Source: Candidatus Omnitrophota bacterium
GTDB taxonomy: Bacteria > Omnitrophota > Gorgyraeia > 1-14-0-20-64-10
Direction of reading: 5' to 3'
Assembly (NCBI GenBank): GCA_016177405.1
Contig: JACOVG010000003.1
Location: forward strand, 1 to 32,049
DNA length: 32,049 nt
The notes below the pieces were generated by a model that was not told where the DNA came from, made no database searches, and saw nothing but the letters and a program-made list of their open reading frames with translations. The stretch's first letter is position 1; each line of letters begins with the position of its first letter. The position numbers were made by a program, and so were the translations under genes. Positions 19,524-26,309 of the stretch are shown piece after piece.

Positions 19524-22500
19524 ATGAAGGCGCAACCCATCACCGCGAGAGGATTAGCGCTCCTTCTAAGCCTTTCCCTTGGCTTTCCTCCGGGCGCCTC
19601 GGCGCTCCGCCCAACCGGCCTCGAAGAGTCGGACTCCGCCAAGGAAAAACTGCTCGAATCCCTCACCGACAGCTCCGACATCGCGCGCCCCGCCGCCGGC
19701 CTCGAGGAACCTCCCGTTGTCTCGACGATCACCAGGTTTTTCCGCTTCCCCACGCAATTGGACTGGCTTCTGGCACAGATGACGCCGAAGGTGGAAGGTC
19801 AAGAACCGGTGGTCATCCTATGCCTGGGCAGCGGGGCGAAGGAACCGGCCTCCATCGCCTCTTCCCTCTGGGAAAGGTATGGCGAGATGCCCCAGGGGAG
19901 GGTTGTCATTCATGCCGTGGATTCTAACGATGGAGTTTACCAAGAGATGCTTCGCCATTTTGAAAAAGGAGAAGCTTTCGATCTTTTTCTAGAGGCAGAC
20001 TCCAGGCCAGGCATTGGCAAGAGGCTTATCAGACTTAACGAAACCATGCTGCACTGGAGACAATGGATCAAGCCCGTCCATTCTTCTTTGGAGAATGTCC
20101 GGGAACTTTACTTCCAGGCCGACGCGGTGTTCCTTAACATGGTGGCTTATCAAGTTAGAGATAGGAAGAAGGTGCGTGAGTTGCTAGCTCAACTGAAAGA
20201 GGGGGCAAGGATATATACCCGGTCTGAAGATGCCCAGCTCCTGGACCTGAAGTCTGATTCCCGATTTTACGTTCTAAATGATTCGAAGGACCCGGAGTGG
20301 GTGATGGTTTTCCAGCGCGCCGGGCTGGAGGAATTGAGTTCTCGGGCGGGCAGACTGGATGCGGAGCTTAAGAGGCTGGCGAGCGAAGCCGAGGAACTCC
20401 AATGGCTTCGAGACTTCCTTCGGGAGGAAGGAATCACGCTGGAGGACCCTTCCATCCGGTTTGGCATACACCTCGGATCCAGCGTTCTTGGCTCCAGCTC
20501 TCCTCCCGCGATAACGCACCTGTACAACCGTGTTCCGGCATGCCGGGCTCCCTTCGCGAAGGCGCGAATACGCCTGATCTCCATTCCTCGAAATACCACC
20601 GAAGCGGAGCTCCCGGAAATTCTCCGAGCGATCGAGGAACACCCTCGAATCGTTTTGGTCACCGCTACCCAGCCGCACAAGATTAAGGTGGGAGCGTGGG
20701 TCAACCGATGGGATCCTCAAGAATTGCCGGCCACAAACGTCCTGATTCTTCGGGATCCACAAGGAAAGCTCCTTGACGTTCGCGGAACGAATTCAGACGG
20801 GCCGGGCTTCGTGGAGCAATATAAGAAGGTCTGGGGTGCACGGCAAGGAAGAATCGGAACGTTTGAGGGAAAGAAGGTGGTGCTTTTAGGCGGCTGGGGC
20901 GGGCTGGGGCAGGCTCTAACGACCTCCGTGCTGAAAGAGAAACCCCTCGAGCTCATCATCAGCGAAATTGACCACCCAGAGAGGACCCTTGAACAGTCGA
21001 GGATGCAGTTTGAAGAGATGCTGGATCGTTTCTCAAGCCAGGGCGGAGAACGGCTCAACGCCACCATCCTGCGGGCCTACGACCCCCGAGATCCCTCTAA
21101 GAACGATCCGGAACTTCTTCGGCACATCCGAGAAGCCGAGATCATCATCAATGCCACCGGTCTTGGAATGGAGAAGAATGATCACCGCTCCCCTCTTACA
21201 GATCCAAGCGTCTTGGGTTCTCAACAAGAGGTGTTCGACTCCATTTACAGAACCAAAAAGGGAGAACCCCGGCCGGTAACGCCATTTCTGCAGCAAGCCT
21301 GGGACGCTGGAGTCCGAAGGGTCTTTAATGGCGTTGGGCTCTACGTGAGGGATTTCGCCTTGGAAGCAGAGTGGCTGGTTCGGGAACTTACAGGTGAGAC
21401 AATTCAGCGCGATCCCATTCACGAGGAGATGTACCACTGGGCTCTCCAAAACCGAGGTCTCAAGGAAGCGAGGGATATCCTCTCCGCCGGGCTGGAGGAG
21501 AAGACGGCGTTGGGCCGACACGTCGACCGGATGGAGCAGGCCATCAAGGAACGCCGCTGGGATTCCTTGGGTGACTTCTCCAAAGAGCTGATGGAGGCGG
21601 CAATTTCCGTCCTTAAAACAGAAGAAGCGGGGAAGGACTTGAGTTCTTTCTGGGAACTCGATGAGGCGGTTTGTTCGCTCCAGGCGCTTCCCGCAGAGGG
21701 TTTACCGCGAGAAGAAGCTGCCTTGAAGATTCTCCGGAGGTGGCAAGCCAATGCCGTCGCTCTCTTGGTGACGACCGCCACCCTTTCCGAGAAGGCGGCC
21801 GAGGGATTCCTGAAAGATCCTGCCTCCCTGGAAGGGCACCTTTGGTTTGTCCTCGATTACCTCTGGGGCAGGCTGCGAATTGCCAACATGGATCGCCTGG
21901 TTTTCTCGAACCAAGAAGTGGCCTGGGAATTCTGGGCAGATGCCTTCCAGGTTCTGACCTGGACCACTCCTCCTGAAAGATTTGATCCTACCCAGATAGA
22001 AGTTGAAGCGATCAGAAGGACGATGCCTATTGAGACCTTCCCCAGCTTGTTAAAAGCTCCGACCCTTGGCCCGGAGAGCGCGAAGCCCTTCTTTGTTCCT
22101 CTGGTTCAACAGATGGGAGAAGCTCCGTTCTTCCTGAAGAAGGATCTTCTCTTGAGGCGCCAGGCCGCGGCGATGAACCTGTCCGCCGTCTTTTACAGCT
22201 TCGCCTCCCGCGTGGCGGGGGAATTGCGCTTAGAACAGACGCGCGCCTTCTTTGATCGGCAGGCCCAGGCGCGGTATCAGCAGGCCGCTGGCGGAGAGAA
22301 TTACCCTTGGAGGCCGGCATTCCAAGCTGTTGTTGCCGAAGAGGAAAGGAAAAACCAGGCGGCAACTCTGCCAGCGCCCAAAGAGGTGATGTGGAAGGTG
22401 GGGGATCGGGTGGCGATGCGCGATCCGTTTTCCGGAAAAGACCGGGTGAGGGTCATTGACGAGGTGGATCCTAAGAACGAACGGGTTCATCTGGAAGGAG

Positions 22501-25500
22501 ATCCTTCCGGGGACCGGGTGAGTTTTAAGATTTTGTCCCGTTTCAAGCGCCTTCCGCGGTCTGGGTTGGAGGAGGATGGGATTGTTCATTTGGAGGGTTT
22601 AAGCTTAGAGAGGGTGGAGGGGATGTTGAAGGGGCATGCGCCGCAAGCGCTTACCTTCTTTTGGGATCGGGAAGGAAAGCCGGCAGAGCCGGAGACCTTT
22701 CCGTGGAATTCCGAGAGCGACTTCCAAGCGTTGGCGCGTGAAAGATTGGGGCAGGGAGCCGACGCCATCCTCTACGCGGTGACCATTCACCGGTTTCCCG
22801 GAGGCCTCCAGGTGGGTTCCCGTCTCACCCACGCGGCTGTTGCTGCCTATCGAGGTTCTTCCTCATCAAATCTTCTGCACGATCTCTCCTGGTACTTGCG
22901 AAATGTGGTTGAGGCGTACCCAGGCCCTCTGGAGAAAATCGTTCTCGTGAATCCAGCGGGGGAAGAGAAATTCATGCCAGCCGCATTCAGCACGGAATCT
23001 CTAAGGAGCTGGTTGAGGGAAGATTTTCGGCGGCTTAGGATTCCGCGAGAGGAATTGGGGCAGTGGCAGACCAGGTTGAAGGTGATTCCGGGAAGCGGCT
23101 TGACACCTCCTCATCTGCGTTTGACGGTGGAGTACCAAGGCACCTCCGGCTCGATCTTAGAAGAAGCAAGGAAGGTTGCCCAGGCGGTGGCGCGCCGTTA
23201 TCCGCTTGCCTATGGCGGAAAAAAACTCCTTCAGGGTTACCTTTCAAGTGACGAGAAAGAGCGCTTGAAAACGATGGCTGCCATGGCCCGAAGCCTTTTT
23301 GAAATGAGCCAGAGATCTCAACGGGGTGAACGAATAGTGGATGCTGACCACGCCATGCGGATTCTGGCGGCGGCTCAAGCGGGGGTCAAGTACGGGCTTC
23401 CATGGCTTCAAATGGAGACGGTGGAAAGGTACCTGGAGGGAAGGTATGACCTCAAGCGGGCCAGGTTAAACTTTCCCCGTCGGCTGGAGAAAAGGGCGGA
23501 AGAGATCTTGAAAGAGGCCGAGAAGCTCCTGAAAGAGGGGACGCGTTTGAGCGGCCAGAAAACCCTTCAAGCCGTCCCTAAAGAAAAGACAAGGGAAGCG
23601 GTTGCGGCTCCTCCCAAACATCCCCTCCCAAGCTCTCCCCTGGCGGAAGCGGTGAATGAATTGTTTGGCGAGGATGGCAAGCTTGAAATCCCGGTTCCTT
23701 CGGATGCCGCCCCCCATGGTCCTGTGGGGGCCGCCGGCGGCCGCTCGGTTGCCGGCAAGACGGCTTATGGCTCTTTCTTGTTGAAGGCCGAGGCCGGGAT
23801 GCTGGAGAATCAAGATCCGGCTGTTTGGAGGGAGAAGGTTCCCGCGGCGCGAATTACGTACCGGCAAAGCAGGGCGCTTATCTCGAGAGACTTCCCGTGG
23901 ATCCGGCAGGTTCAATTCCGAATGGCTGCCCCCGTTCAAACGGATTGGGGAACGCTGAATCCGGTTCTGTTTCCCATCCATGATCGGTCTCGAGCCCGGG
24001 AGATGGCGATCACCTTCCCCTTGCCATGGGTTGGGTTGGACCAGCCCGGGCCTGTTCGGGCGGTCTTGGAGGCCCGCCTCCCCGAGGTCTTGCTGGAAGA
24101 AGAAGCAGATGCCAGAACTGACGACTCGAGACTCATCTTTGCCACAAGCGAGGAACCCTCCGCCGGGCTGCCCCAAAAATGGGCTCTAGTTTATGAGCCA
24201 CCTGAAGGTGGTCTAAAAACTTCGGGGTTGGAGGAGCGGGGGATCAGAAAACTGCTTGTCTTCGCGCCGGGGTTCGTTCAAGGGGCAATCGGGGATGCCG
24301 TGAAAAAGTGGCGCTTGGACTCACCGAGCACCGAGGTTGCCTATGTGGAAGCCAAAGAGCAAGTTCCAGACAATCCCCAGGCATACCCGGACGCGGTTTT
24401 CATTGTGGTGCAGGATGGCAGCTCTTGGGACCTGCTGGAGAAGCTCTTCTCCTTGGCGGCCCACGGGGTTCCGACGGCGCTCCTTTGCCCGCCCTCTTTG
24501 ATGAACGAGGAAAGGATCTCCTCGGCCTACGTGAGGGTAGCGTCACTGGAGGCAAACCCCCTTTTCCTCCACGTGGAAGACGGTCTCGCGCAAGAACCCA
24601 AGCTGATTCTTACGGCAGGGCAGGTTCTCAACCGGCTCGATTTCGCGGCCACCGCGGGCGATTCCGGGATGGATTTGGCAAGGATCCGGCTGGCGGCAAG
24701 GAAATTCGCCAGGACTCTTCAGGAACCCCTGGGATCCATTGGCGAGGGCCTCACGAAACTTCGCCGGATCACCAACTCTTGGAAAGAAAAGTTACCCCGA
24801 GAAATGCCGGCGGAGGCGGAGGGGGCCCTACGGGAGATCTCTTCTTCCCGGGAGGAGATCTCCCGGGTTCTTCAAGTGAACAGAGAGAATCGACCATCCG
24901 AATTGAGCCGGCTCATCGGCTATGAGCTGACCAGCGCGGTCAACGCGCTCGACCTGGTGCAGTTCGCGACGACTCCAGAAAAGGTTCTCTCCCATCTGCC
25001 TACCATTGAGGTAAGCTTCCAGCACATCCTGGCTGTTTTGGATGAGCTTCAATCCTGGGAGCAGGTTCGGATGGCGGGCGACCCCTTCTTTCCCTACCTT
25101 GCTCTGGCAACCTCCGACACCATTTCCCTGCCGGTGGGGACCTACGCGTATGCCGTGGCAGGGATACGGGTCGTTTTAGGACCCATCAAAGAAGATGGCG
25201 GTGAGACAGCCGGAGAGAAGGAGGCTGCCGGGGTTGAAACTACGGCAGGGAATCGATCCTACCACCACGGCCAGAAGCCGTGGGCGGAGGTGGTAAATGA
25301 GCATCGCCAGGTGACTCGGCTTATCTCCCAAATGAGAGGCTGGCCCCTTGAGGAAATCCATGCCGCCATCGCCAATCTGGACTTCTTCGCCGCTGGGTTG
25401 TCCCAAAAAGGGGCTCCAGTTTATGGGCCGCCTAAAGGTGGCCTAGAAACTTCGGGGTTGGAGGAGGGGGTGCTGGGGGGAGTGATGGCGCGGATGCCGG

Positions 25501-26309
25501 ACCCAAAGAGTTATTCCGATGTAGAAAAGTGGCTGGACGCGGTGCACGGACCGGCCCCAATTACGGGTTATCCGCTGGCGGATGATGTGGCGTGGGGGTT
25601 GTTGGCGCGGAATTACGACTCTCCAGAAGGGAAGAGATCGGCGTTTTGGAAACAATTGGCGGAGGAAGTTTCCGGCAAGGCAGGGCAATTGAAACCCCTT
25701 GAGGTCCTGTGGCTGGCGGAGATATTCGAGCATCTGACCAAGCAATACGTTCCTGAAGAAGGCAGGGGGGCTGTTGCTGAAATTCTTGATCTGGTCGTAA
25801 AGAGAAGAATTCCGGAGGCCGCGGAAAATGTGAGGTTTGAGGAGGTGAAAGGGTTTGAGTTCCCTGATACCTTGCCGGGCTTCCTTCTGGAGAAGGAGGG
25901 ACTTCGATTCGCGCCCCTGTTTGCCCTGATGCGCGCCAGGATGGGCCGCATCAAGATGCCTCCCTTTGCGGGAGTTGTAGAGACAAAGAAGGAGAAAGCA
26001 GCCCTGATAGAGATCTTGTCGATTTCCGACAAGATGCTGCCGGAGGAGCGAGCCCAGGTGGTAGAGGCAAAAAGGATTTTAAGAAGGATGATCCAATCTG
26101 CCGAGTCCTTCGGGGGAGGAGAGAAAGGCTACGAAGAAGCCACCCGGTTGGCAGAATCCATGTTGCTCGGTTTAGTTCTTACGCCCATTAAGGAAGCTGA
26201 ACCCAACTTGCTTAGGCAACTGAACCAACTCCTGGGCCGCTTCGGCTACCGGCTTTCTCCTGATCGCGCCACGCAGGAGGCGGCGCTCATCCTGCTTTAC
26301 GCCGCGTAA
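19524..26309 (+). CDS. Giant (2261 aa) multidomain protein with signal-peptide-like N-terminus, seven GLEE motifs and an AroE-like internal domain
   Basis: Single ORF; MKAQPITARGLALLLSLSLGFPPGASA|LRPTGLEE N-terminus; GLEE at aa 32, 59, 267, 656, 1014, 1568, 1978; AroE-like motifs at about aa 312-640. Confidence 0.85.
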   Translation: MKAQPITARGLALLLSLSLGFPPGASALRPTGLEESDSAKEKLLESLTDSSDIARPAAGLEEPPVVSTITRFFRFPTQLDWLLAQMTPKVEGQEPVVILCLGSGAKEPASIASSLWERYGEMPQGRVVIHAVDSNDGVYQEMLRHFEKGEAFDLFLEADSRPGIGKRLIRLNETMLHWRQWIKPVHSSLENVRELYFQADAVFLNMVAYQVRDRKKVRELLAQLKEGARIYTRSEDAQLLDLKSDSRFYVLNDSKDPEWVMVFQRAGLEELSSRAGRLDAELKRLASEAEELQWLRDFLREEGITLEDPSIRFGIHLGSSVLGSSSPPAITHLYNRVPACRAPFAKARIRLISIPRNTTEAELPEILRAIEEHPRIVLVTATQPHKIKVGAWVNRWDPQELPATNVLILRDPQGKLLDVRGTNSDGPGFVEQYKKVWGARQGRIGTFEGKKVVLLGGWGGLGQALTTSVLKEKPLELIISEIDHPERTLEQSRMQFEEMLDRFSSQGGERLNATILRAYDPRDPSKNDPELLRHIREAEIIINATGLGMEKNDHRSPLTDPSVLGSQQEVFDSIYRTKKGEPRPVTPFLQQAWDAGVRRVFNGVGLYVRDFALEAEWLVRELTGETIQRDPIHEEMYHWALQNRGLKEARDILSAGLEEKTALGRHVDRMEQAIKERRWDSLGDFSKELMEAAISVLKTEEAGKDLSSFWELDEAVCSLQALPAEGLPREEAALKILRRWQANAVALLVTTATLSEKAAEGFLKDPASLEGHLWFVLDYLWGRLRIANMDRLVFSNQEVAWEFWADAFQVLTWTTPPERFDPTQIEVEAIRRTMPIETFPSLLKAPTLGPESAKPFFVPLVQQMGEAPFFLKKDLLLRRQAAAMNLSAVFYSFASRVAGELRLEQTRAFFDRQAQARYQQAAGGENYPWRPAFQAVVAEEERKNQAATLPAPKEVMWKVGDRVAMRDPFSGKDRVRVIDEVDPKNERVHLEGDPSGDRVSFKILSRFKRLPRSGLEEDGIVHLEGLSLERVEGMLKGHAPQALTFFWDREGKPAEPETFPWNSESDFQALARERLGQGADAILYAVTIHRFPGGLQVGSRLTHAAVAAYRGSSSSNLLHDLSWYLRNVVEAYPGPLEKIVLVNPAGEEKFMPAAFSTESLRSWLREDFRRLRIPREELGQWQTRLKVIPGSGLTPPHLRLTVEYQGTSGSILEEARKVAQAVARRYPLAYGGKKLLQGYLSSDEKERLKTMAAMARSLFEMSQRSQRGERIVDADHAMRILAAAQAGVKYGLPWLQMETVERYLEGRYDLKRARLNFPRRLEKRAEEILKEAEKLLKEGTRLSGQKTLQAVPKEKTREAVAAPPKHPLPSSPLAEAVNELFGEDGKLEIPVPSDAAPHGPVGAAGGRSVAGKTAYGSFLLKAEAGMLENQDPAVWREKVPAARITYRQSRALISRDFPWIRQVQFRMAAPVQTDWGTLNPVLFPIHDRSRAREMAITFPLPWVGLDQPGPVRAVLEARLPEVLLEEEADARTDDSRLIFATSEEPSAGLPQKWALVYEPPEGGLKTSGLEERGIRKLLVFAPGFVQGAIGDAVKKWRLDSPSTEVAYVEAKEQVPDNPQAYPDAVFIVVQDGSSWDLLEKLFSLAAHGVPTALLCPPSLMNEERISSAYVRVASLEANPLFLHVEDGLAQEPKLILTAGQVLNRLDFAATAGDSGMDLARIRLAARKFARTLQEPLGSIGEGLTKLRRITNSWKEKLPREMPAEAEGALREISSSREEISRVLQVNRENRPSELSRLIGYELTSAVNALDLVQFATTPEKVLSHLPTIEVSFQHILAVLDELQSWEQVRMAGDPFFPYLALATSDTISLPVGTYAYAVAGIRVVLGPIKEDGGETAGEKEAAGVETTAGNRSYHHGQKPWAEVVNEHRQVTRLISQMRGWPLEEIHAAIANLDFFAAGLSQKGAPVYGPPKGGLETSGLEEGVLGGVMARMPDPKSYSDVEKWLDAVHGPAPITGYPLADDVAWGLLARNYDSPEGKRSAFWKQLAEEVSGKAGQLKPLEVLWLAEIFEHLTKQYVPEEGRGAVAEILDLVVKRRIPEAAENVRFEEVKGFEFPDTLPGFLLEKEGLRFAPLFALMRARMGRIKMPPFAGVVETKKEKAALIEILSISDKMLPEERAQVVEAKRILRRMIQSAESFGGGEKGYEEATRLAESMLLGLVLTPIKEAEPNLLRQLNQLLGRFGYRLSPDRATQEAALILLYAA
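24171..24230 (+). repeat. In-frame 60-bp imperfectly palindromic insert, copy 1 (PQKWALVYEPPEGGLKTSGL)
   Basis: 52/60 identical to 25401-25460; flanked by SAGL before and EE after. Confidence 0.8.
25401..25460 (+). repeat. In-frame 60-bp imperfectly palindromic insert, copy 2 (SQKGAPVYGPPKGGLETSGL)
   Basis: 52/60 identical to 24171-24230; flanked by AAGL before and EE after. Confidence 0.8.

Follow-up and report, generated by a model that had tools for sequence, protein, structure and literature searches.

Chains that are cut at short recurrent sites are familiar from viral polyproteins and neuropeptide precursors. In Plasmodium, the PEXEL motif (RxLx[E/Q/D]) occurs once per protein and is read by one protease, while LPXTG and PEP-CTERM signals consist of a single C-terminal word, followed by a TM helix and a basic tail, that is also read by one enzyme. 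In the Omnitrophota, giant ORFs have been described, such as the 39,678-aa ORF of 'Ca. Velamenicoccus archaeovorus' LiM, and the sections of that account considered here call their roles poorly understood and stress adhesion and many TM helices (PMC10066038).

The window analyzed here, 32,049 nucleotides in length, belongs to contig C32, one of the 35 contigs that make up a 1.70-Mb genome (G000), whose ValRS finds its closest matches mostly among Candidatus Omnitrophota MAGs (54–59% for the best). It encodes a giant exported-type protein, P0001, bearing seven copies of the word GLEE (Table 1), against a chance expectation of about 0.1 at the genome rate of 15 per 311,024 aa. All seven occurrences listed by a first-pass annotation of this ORF are present at the residues it gave, the segment lengths it reported between them are correct, and its reading of the N-terminus as a Sec-like signal peptide (ASA/LRPT) with the first word directly behind it agrees with our own judgment of the sequence. 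The small residue (T, A or S) that it associated with the motif accompanies every word, in the order T, A, A, A, S, S, S, but directly precedes the G instead of standing fifth before EE. Pfam searches with the whole protein and with each module returned no domain above cut-off, and a scan of the genome contigs with the whole protein returned no relative. A PDB search with the module at aa 264–659 reached shikimate dehydrogenase at E 0.3, which only suggests an AroE-like fold, and single-sequence AlphaFold2 prediction of the C-terminal half, run with no alignment, gave a mean pLDDT of 36.9, too low to be informative. Words 6 and 7 fall within copies of one linker, GL[SP]QK...VY.PP.GGL.TSGLEE (window 24156–24236 and 25386–25466), which is also present in the giant C11_5160.

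Table 1. P0001 and its parts in the window.
Feature	Residues (aa)	Window position	Strand	Basis or remark
P0001, giant exported-type protein	1–2261, ends LLYAA	19524..26309	+	sequence; C-terminal Ala as in 19/25 word proteins
Leader, signal-peptide-like	1–27, ends ASA	19524..19604	+	inferred from sequence
LRPT, LR[PQE]-type start common to word proteins	28–31	19605..19616	+	sequence
GLEE word 1	32	19617..19628	+	sequence
GLEE word 2	59	19698..19709	+	sequence
Module, weak CheR/DOT1-type methyltransferase resemblance	63–266	19710..20321	+	sub-threshold Pfam, E 0.001 and 0.008
GLEE word 3	267	20322..20333	+	sequence; kept in paralogue
Module, Rossmann-like	271–655	20334..21488	+	36% identical paralogue G000:C32:89470-90669, GLEE on both sides
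GLEE word 4	656	21489..21500	+	sequence
Module	660–1013	21501..22562	+	relatives in G004 giant ORFs, two side by side in one frame
GLEE word 5	1014	22563..22574	+	sequence
Module	1018–1567	22575..24224	+	Pfam by module: no family found
GLEE word 6	1568	24225..24236	+	sequence
Module	1572–1977	24237..25454	+	no family found
GLEE word 7	1978	25455..25466	+	sequence; kept in C11_5160
C-terminal module	1982–2261	25467..26306	+	from about aa 2085 also C-terminal in giants of G001, G003 and G004

The word is not peculiar to P0001. In the DNA of the genome, the pattern [AST]G[LF]EE has 203 matches compared with 15 for its reversed control. The 987 kb of G000 that were read (740 gene calls with a total of 311,024 aa) contain 182 GLEE where 15 are expected (Poisson log10 P about −126). 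The calls are the longest ORFs of draft contigs, and some giants among them may be spurious (e.g., C17:1-11319, in an unlikely start frame). Permuted orderings of the same letters are found 7–25 times each, except for LEEG, whose count of 53 is inflated because G often follows GLEE, and GMEE, GIEE, GVEE and GFEE remain at chance level. The residue preceding the word is A in 87 cases, S in 39 and T in 32. A few single matches are ordinary chance, as in rpoB-like and NfeD-like genes. The proteome-wide enrichment on which the first-pass annotation had staked its proposal is strong, and the assembly fusion of separate genes that it had raised as an objection is ruled out by the presence of dozens of such giants across many contigs and genomes.

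Within these proteins, the word respects domain limits. None of the words falls inside the 18 Pfam domains identified in 13 proteins, whereas random placement would put 9.9 there (0 of 20,000 simulations), bearing out the suggested concentration of the motif between domains. The fit is often tight: a WD40 propeller at aa 854–1145 is flanked by words at 847 and 1148, an aminotransferase ends 13 aa ahead of a word, and in the related genome G005 a WD40 domain ends at 371 with a word at 373 and an aldolase starts 8 aa past a word. In L040:13097-17092, one GLEE-to-GLEE module is filled exactly by a WD40 propeller whose repeats are unusually regular and eukaryote-like (315 bits to THOC3). Furthermore, aa 265–655 of P0001 recur from GLEE to GLEE elsewhere on the same contig (Table 1), and aa 2202–2547 of C17_28347 match aa 802–1155 of C17_48887, with end words lying about 15 aa or less from the limits of the alignment. 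These observations support the movement of GLEE-bounded modules as units between giants. The first-pass annotation had proposed three possible meanings for the word, namely a signal for processing or sorting, the layout of a polyprotein and a motif that joins modules. The part of that proposal that concerns layout is supported, with words after the leader, words between domains and modules moving as units.

Proteins with at least two words are mostly large, from about 0.8 to 8 kaa, and other giants of G000 extend over 18–24 kb in one frame, compared with 6.8 kb for the P0001 ORF. Most word proteins begin with a leader, as judged by hydrophobicity, followed by LR[PQE...] and by a first word 4–41 residues past LR; most have no further TM-like segment, and GLEE often also lies near the C-terminus. 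A C-terminal Ala is found in 19 of the 25 complete proteins with at least two words, compared with 5 of 129 wordless proteins whose N-terminus is hydrophobic, and is equally common in the relatives G001, G005 and G006 (70–81%). Several leader-bearing proteins contain cytosolic-looking enzymes, among them 4-alpha-glucanotransferase, starch synthase, sugar kinases and aldolases. DNA-binding-type domains are also seen behind leaders, with three HTH in L039:7394-11980 and a sigma-70 region 4 in L107:8788-11583. Not all giants belong to the word set, since two repeat-type frames cut by contig ends, L060 (G000:C19; 6734 aa) and L082 (G000:C8; 2407 aa), contain zero GLEE.

In raw DNA, GLEE exceeds its reversed control in 10 of the 11 genomes of the source's order, and across 292 genomes sampled from the phylum, those that stand out all belong to the source's family, the others lying near control. 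The exception within the family is G001, in which GLE[AS] takes the place of GLEE in the same kind of architecture (108 matches vs. 43 in the control), and the few Pfam domains found in it contain none of its own words. G005 uses G[LQAM]EE, with GLEE 73, GQEE 41, GAEE 26 and GMEE 7 times. The spelling of the word changes across whole genomes. Beyond the family, an ARMT1 module found in one of the giants exists as a free-standing enzyme of about 300 aa in most of the genomes that encode it, and several other families carry it within giant frames, which reach 42,913 aa in G087. Some of these other-family giants show over-represented words of their own at apparent module boundaries, namely SSSP or ASSS in G130 (L183) and G087 (L179–L182), KDGG in G167 (L184) and ELR[AST] in G038 (L195), and others show none. 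Of eight Pfam domains in G130, none contains an SSP (2.8 expected, P 0.03), and SSP splits 6 of 7 neighboring domain pairs. Each of these words comes from one contig or stretch, and they are treated here as leads.

A trans-acting reader is suggested by the sharing of one spelling per genome among dozens of unrelated proteins, and a protease by the combination of polyprotein layout, tight fit to domain ends and a small preceding residue that matches the terminal Ala. We give about an even chance to the view that [AST]GLEE is a short linear motif marking module ends and read in trans, most likely as a processing site of exported polyproteins. Under this model, the giant would be synthesized as one chain of modules and would cross the inner membrane by means of its signal peptide, and an extracytoplasmic protease would cut it at the words into single modules. 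A scissile bond between [AST] and G would leave each module with GLEE at its start and a small residue at its end, which would agree with the terminal Ala of most of these proteins. One candidate is a secreted subtilase of about 610–640 aa whose gene comes immediately after those of orthologous giants in three genera (G000, G005 and G008). Subtilase genes were located at L037:3250-5088, L280, L281 and L279, with an OmpA-like gene next after the subtilase, and G002 also encodes one on a contig that starts too near to show the upstream gene. The subtilase is absent from G001, G003 and G004, and it can therefore be at best one reader, not a universal one; we regard it as a lead. An S41 protease is present in single copy in almost all relatives, and a caspase-like C14 enzyme was rejected, with none in 23 relatives. 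Among the candidates compared (subtilase, S41 and C14), no protease gene tracks the presence of the word. Several observations count against cutting, which we infer from the sequences: words 8–50 aa apart near many protein ends would release tiny peptides, S and T precede the word yet hardly occur at protein C-termini, and the placing of cytosolic-type enzymes outside the cytoplasm would itself call for an explanation.

An uncut docking or anchoring tag is the main and a serious rival, albeit one that we hold to be on the unlikely side. The word would here bind a hypothetical surface, scaffold or chaperone protein, holding the chain at module boundaries and near both ends. Multivalent binding would fit the C-terminal clusters of words 35–50 aa apart that are kept in paralogues, and strict spelling and dialects fit any reader. 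Docking predicts, however, neither words set so closely against domain ends (7 and 3 aa for the WD40 propeller) nor the terminal Ala. A structural linker or helix cap that needs no reader, with the word as a favorable joint between domains, is a good deal less probable. The position of the word between domains and the often helical-looking residues after the first word agree with it, but a joint would tolerate variants, and one-mismatch words near 153 intact words are not in excess (25 vs. 38.6 expected); moreover, Ala, which is unable to cap, precedes half of the words, and the spelling differs between whole genomes.

An origin at the DNA level, as a scar, as a linker cassette copied during module shuffling or as an internal Shine-Dalgarno-like pause (GGAGGAG), is very improbable, having been largely refuted by frame and codon tests. 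The codons of the word do lean to CTG GAG GAG in G000, and copying is evident for a few linkers, two of which lie in P0001. Inside genes with at least two words, however, 148 pattern matches are in frame and the five remaining frames together hold only 3. G005 encodes the Leu and Glu of the word at background codon frequencies, the G001 spelling breaks the purine run, most linkers are unrelated in sequence, and decayed copies are missing, since one-mismatch words are not in excess. Paralogue codons differ as well: C18_89783 and C27_11314, which are identical at 73 of the 194 residues aligned between their C-termini (38%), keep all four words there under different codons. GLEE is under selection as protein sequence at the module boundaries of exported-looking giants. 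Lastly, chance, composition or an assembly artefact has a negligible probability, for even if some longest-ORF giants are spurious, the raw-DNA excess over the reversed control extends over nearly the whole order, the count in G000 has the significance given above, and permuted words and reversed patterns rule out chance and composition.

If the word is indeed a processing or attachment site, the foreign words of other families could belong to a phylum-wide export system of the Omnitrophota. Metabolic and regulatory modules would be carried in giant secreted chains, and a fast-evolving reader, a protease or transpeptidase, would act outside the cytoplasm, perhaps at a host or a prey cell, to release or attach them at lineage-specific words (GLEE, GLE[AS], G[LQAM]EE, SSSP, KDGG, ELR[AST]). 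We advance this extension tentatively and consider it somewhat doubtful. A separator word makes Omnitrophota giants parseable into module boundaries and predicted products, with processing testable by proteomics. Whole-genome dialects would furthermore record, as few natural cases do, how a reader and dozens of its targets changed in concert, and the question arises of why cytosolic-looking enzymes, HTH and sigma-70 region 4 domains bear export leaders. Should the word be a plain cleavage site, the novelty would shrink to a variant of polyprotein processing.

The giants reported earlier from the same phylum are the nearest relatives of these proteins in kind, with very long ORFs and few annotated domains, and the 42,913-aa frame of G087 is of that kind; the P0001 ORF, from a member of the phylum, lies below the >20 kb class counted there, and in most giants described here the leader is the only hydrophobic segment, unlike the TM-rich giants stressed in the consulted sections of that account, which describe no separator word, module parsing or dialects (PMC10066038). 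No earlier description of such a separator word was found in the open-access literature. With PEXEL, the word shares a position shortly after the leader in exported proteins of many unrelated kinds, but its consensus, [AST]GLEE, is another one and it recurs between modules. With LPXTG and PEP-CTERM it shares genome-wide use on unrelated exported proteins, but it is internal and repeated, and P0001 has no C-terminal TM-like segment. In layout the word proteins resemble polyproteins and prohormones, in which, as here, a leader is followed by a chain of several domains split by one short site; the difference is that here one site is common to dozens of bacterial proteins that are unrelated to each other, with a candidate protease and a presumptive cut.
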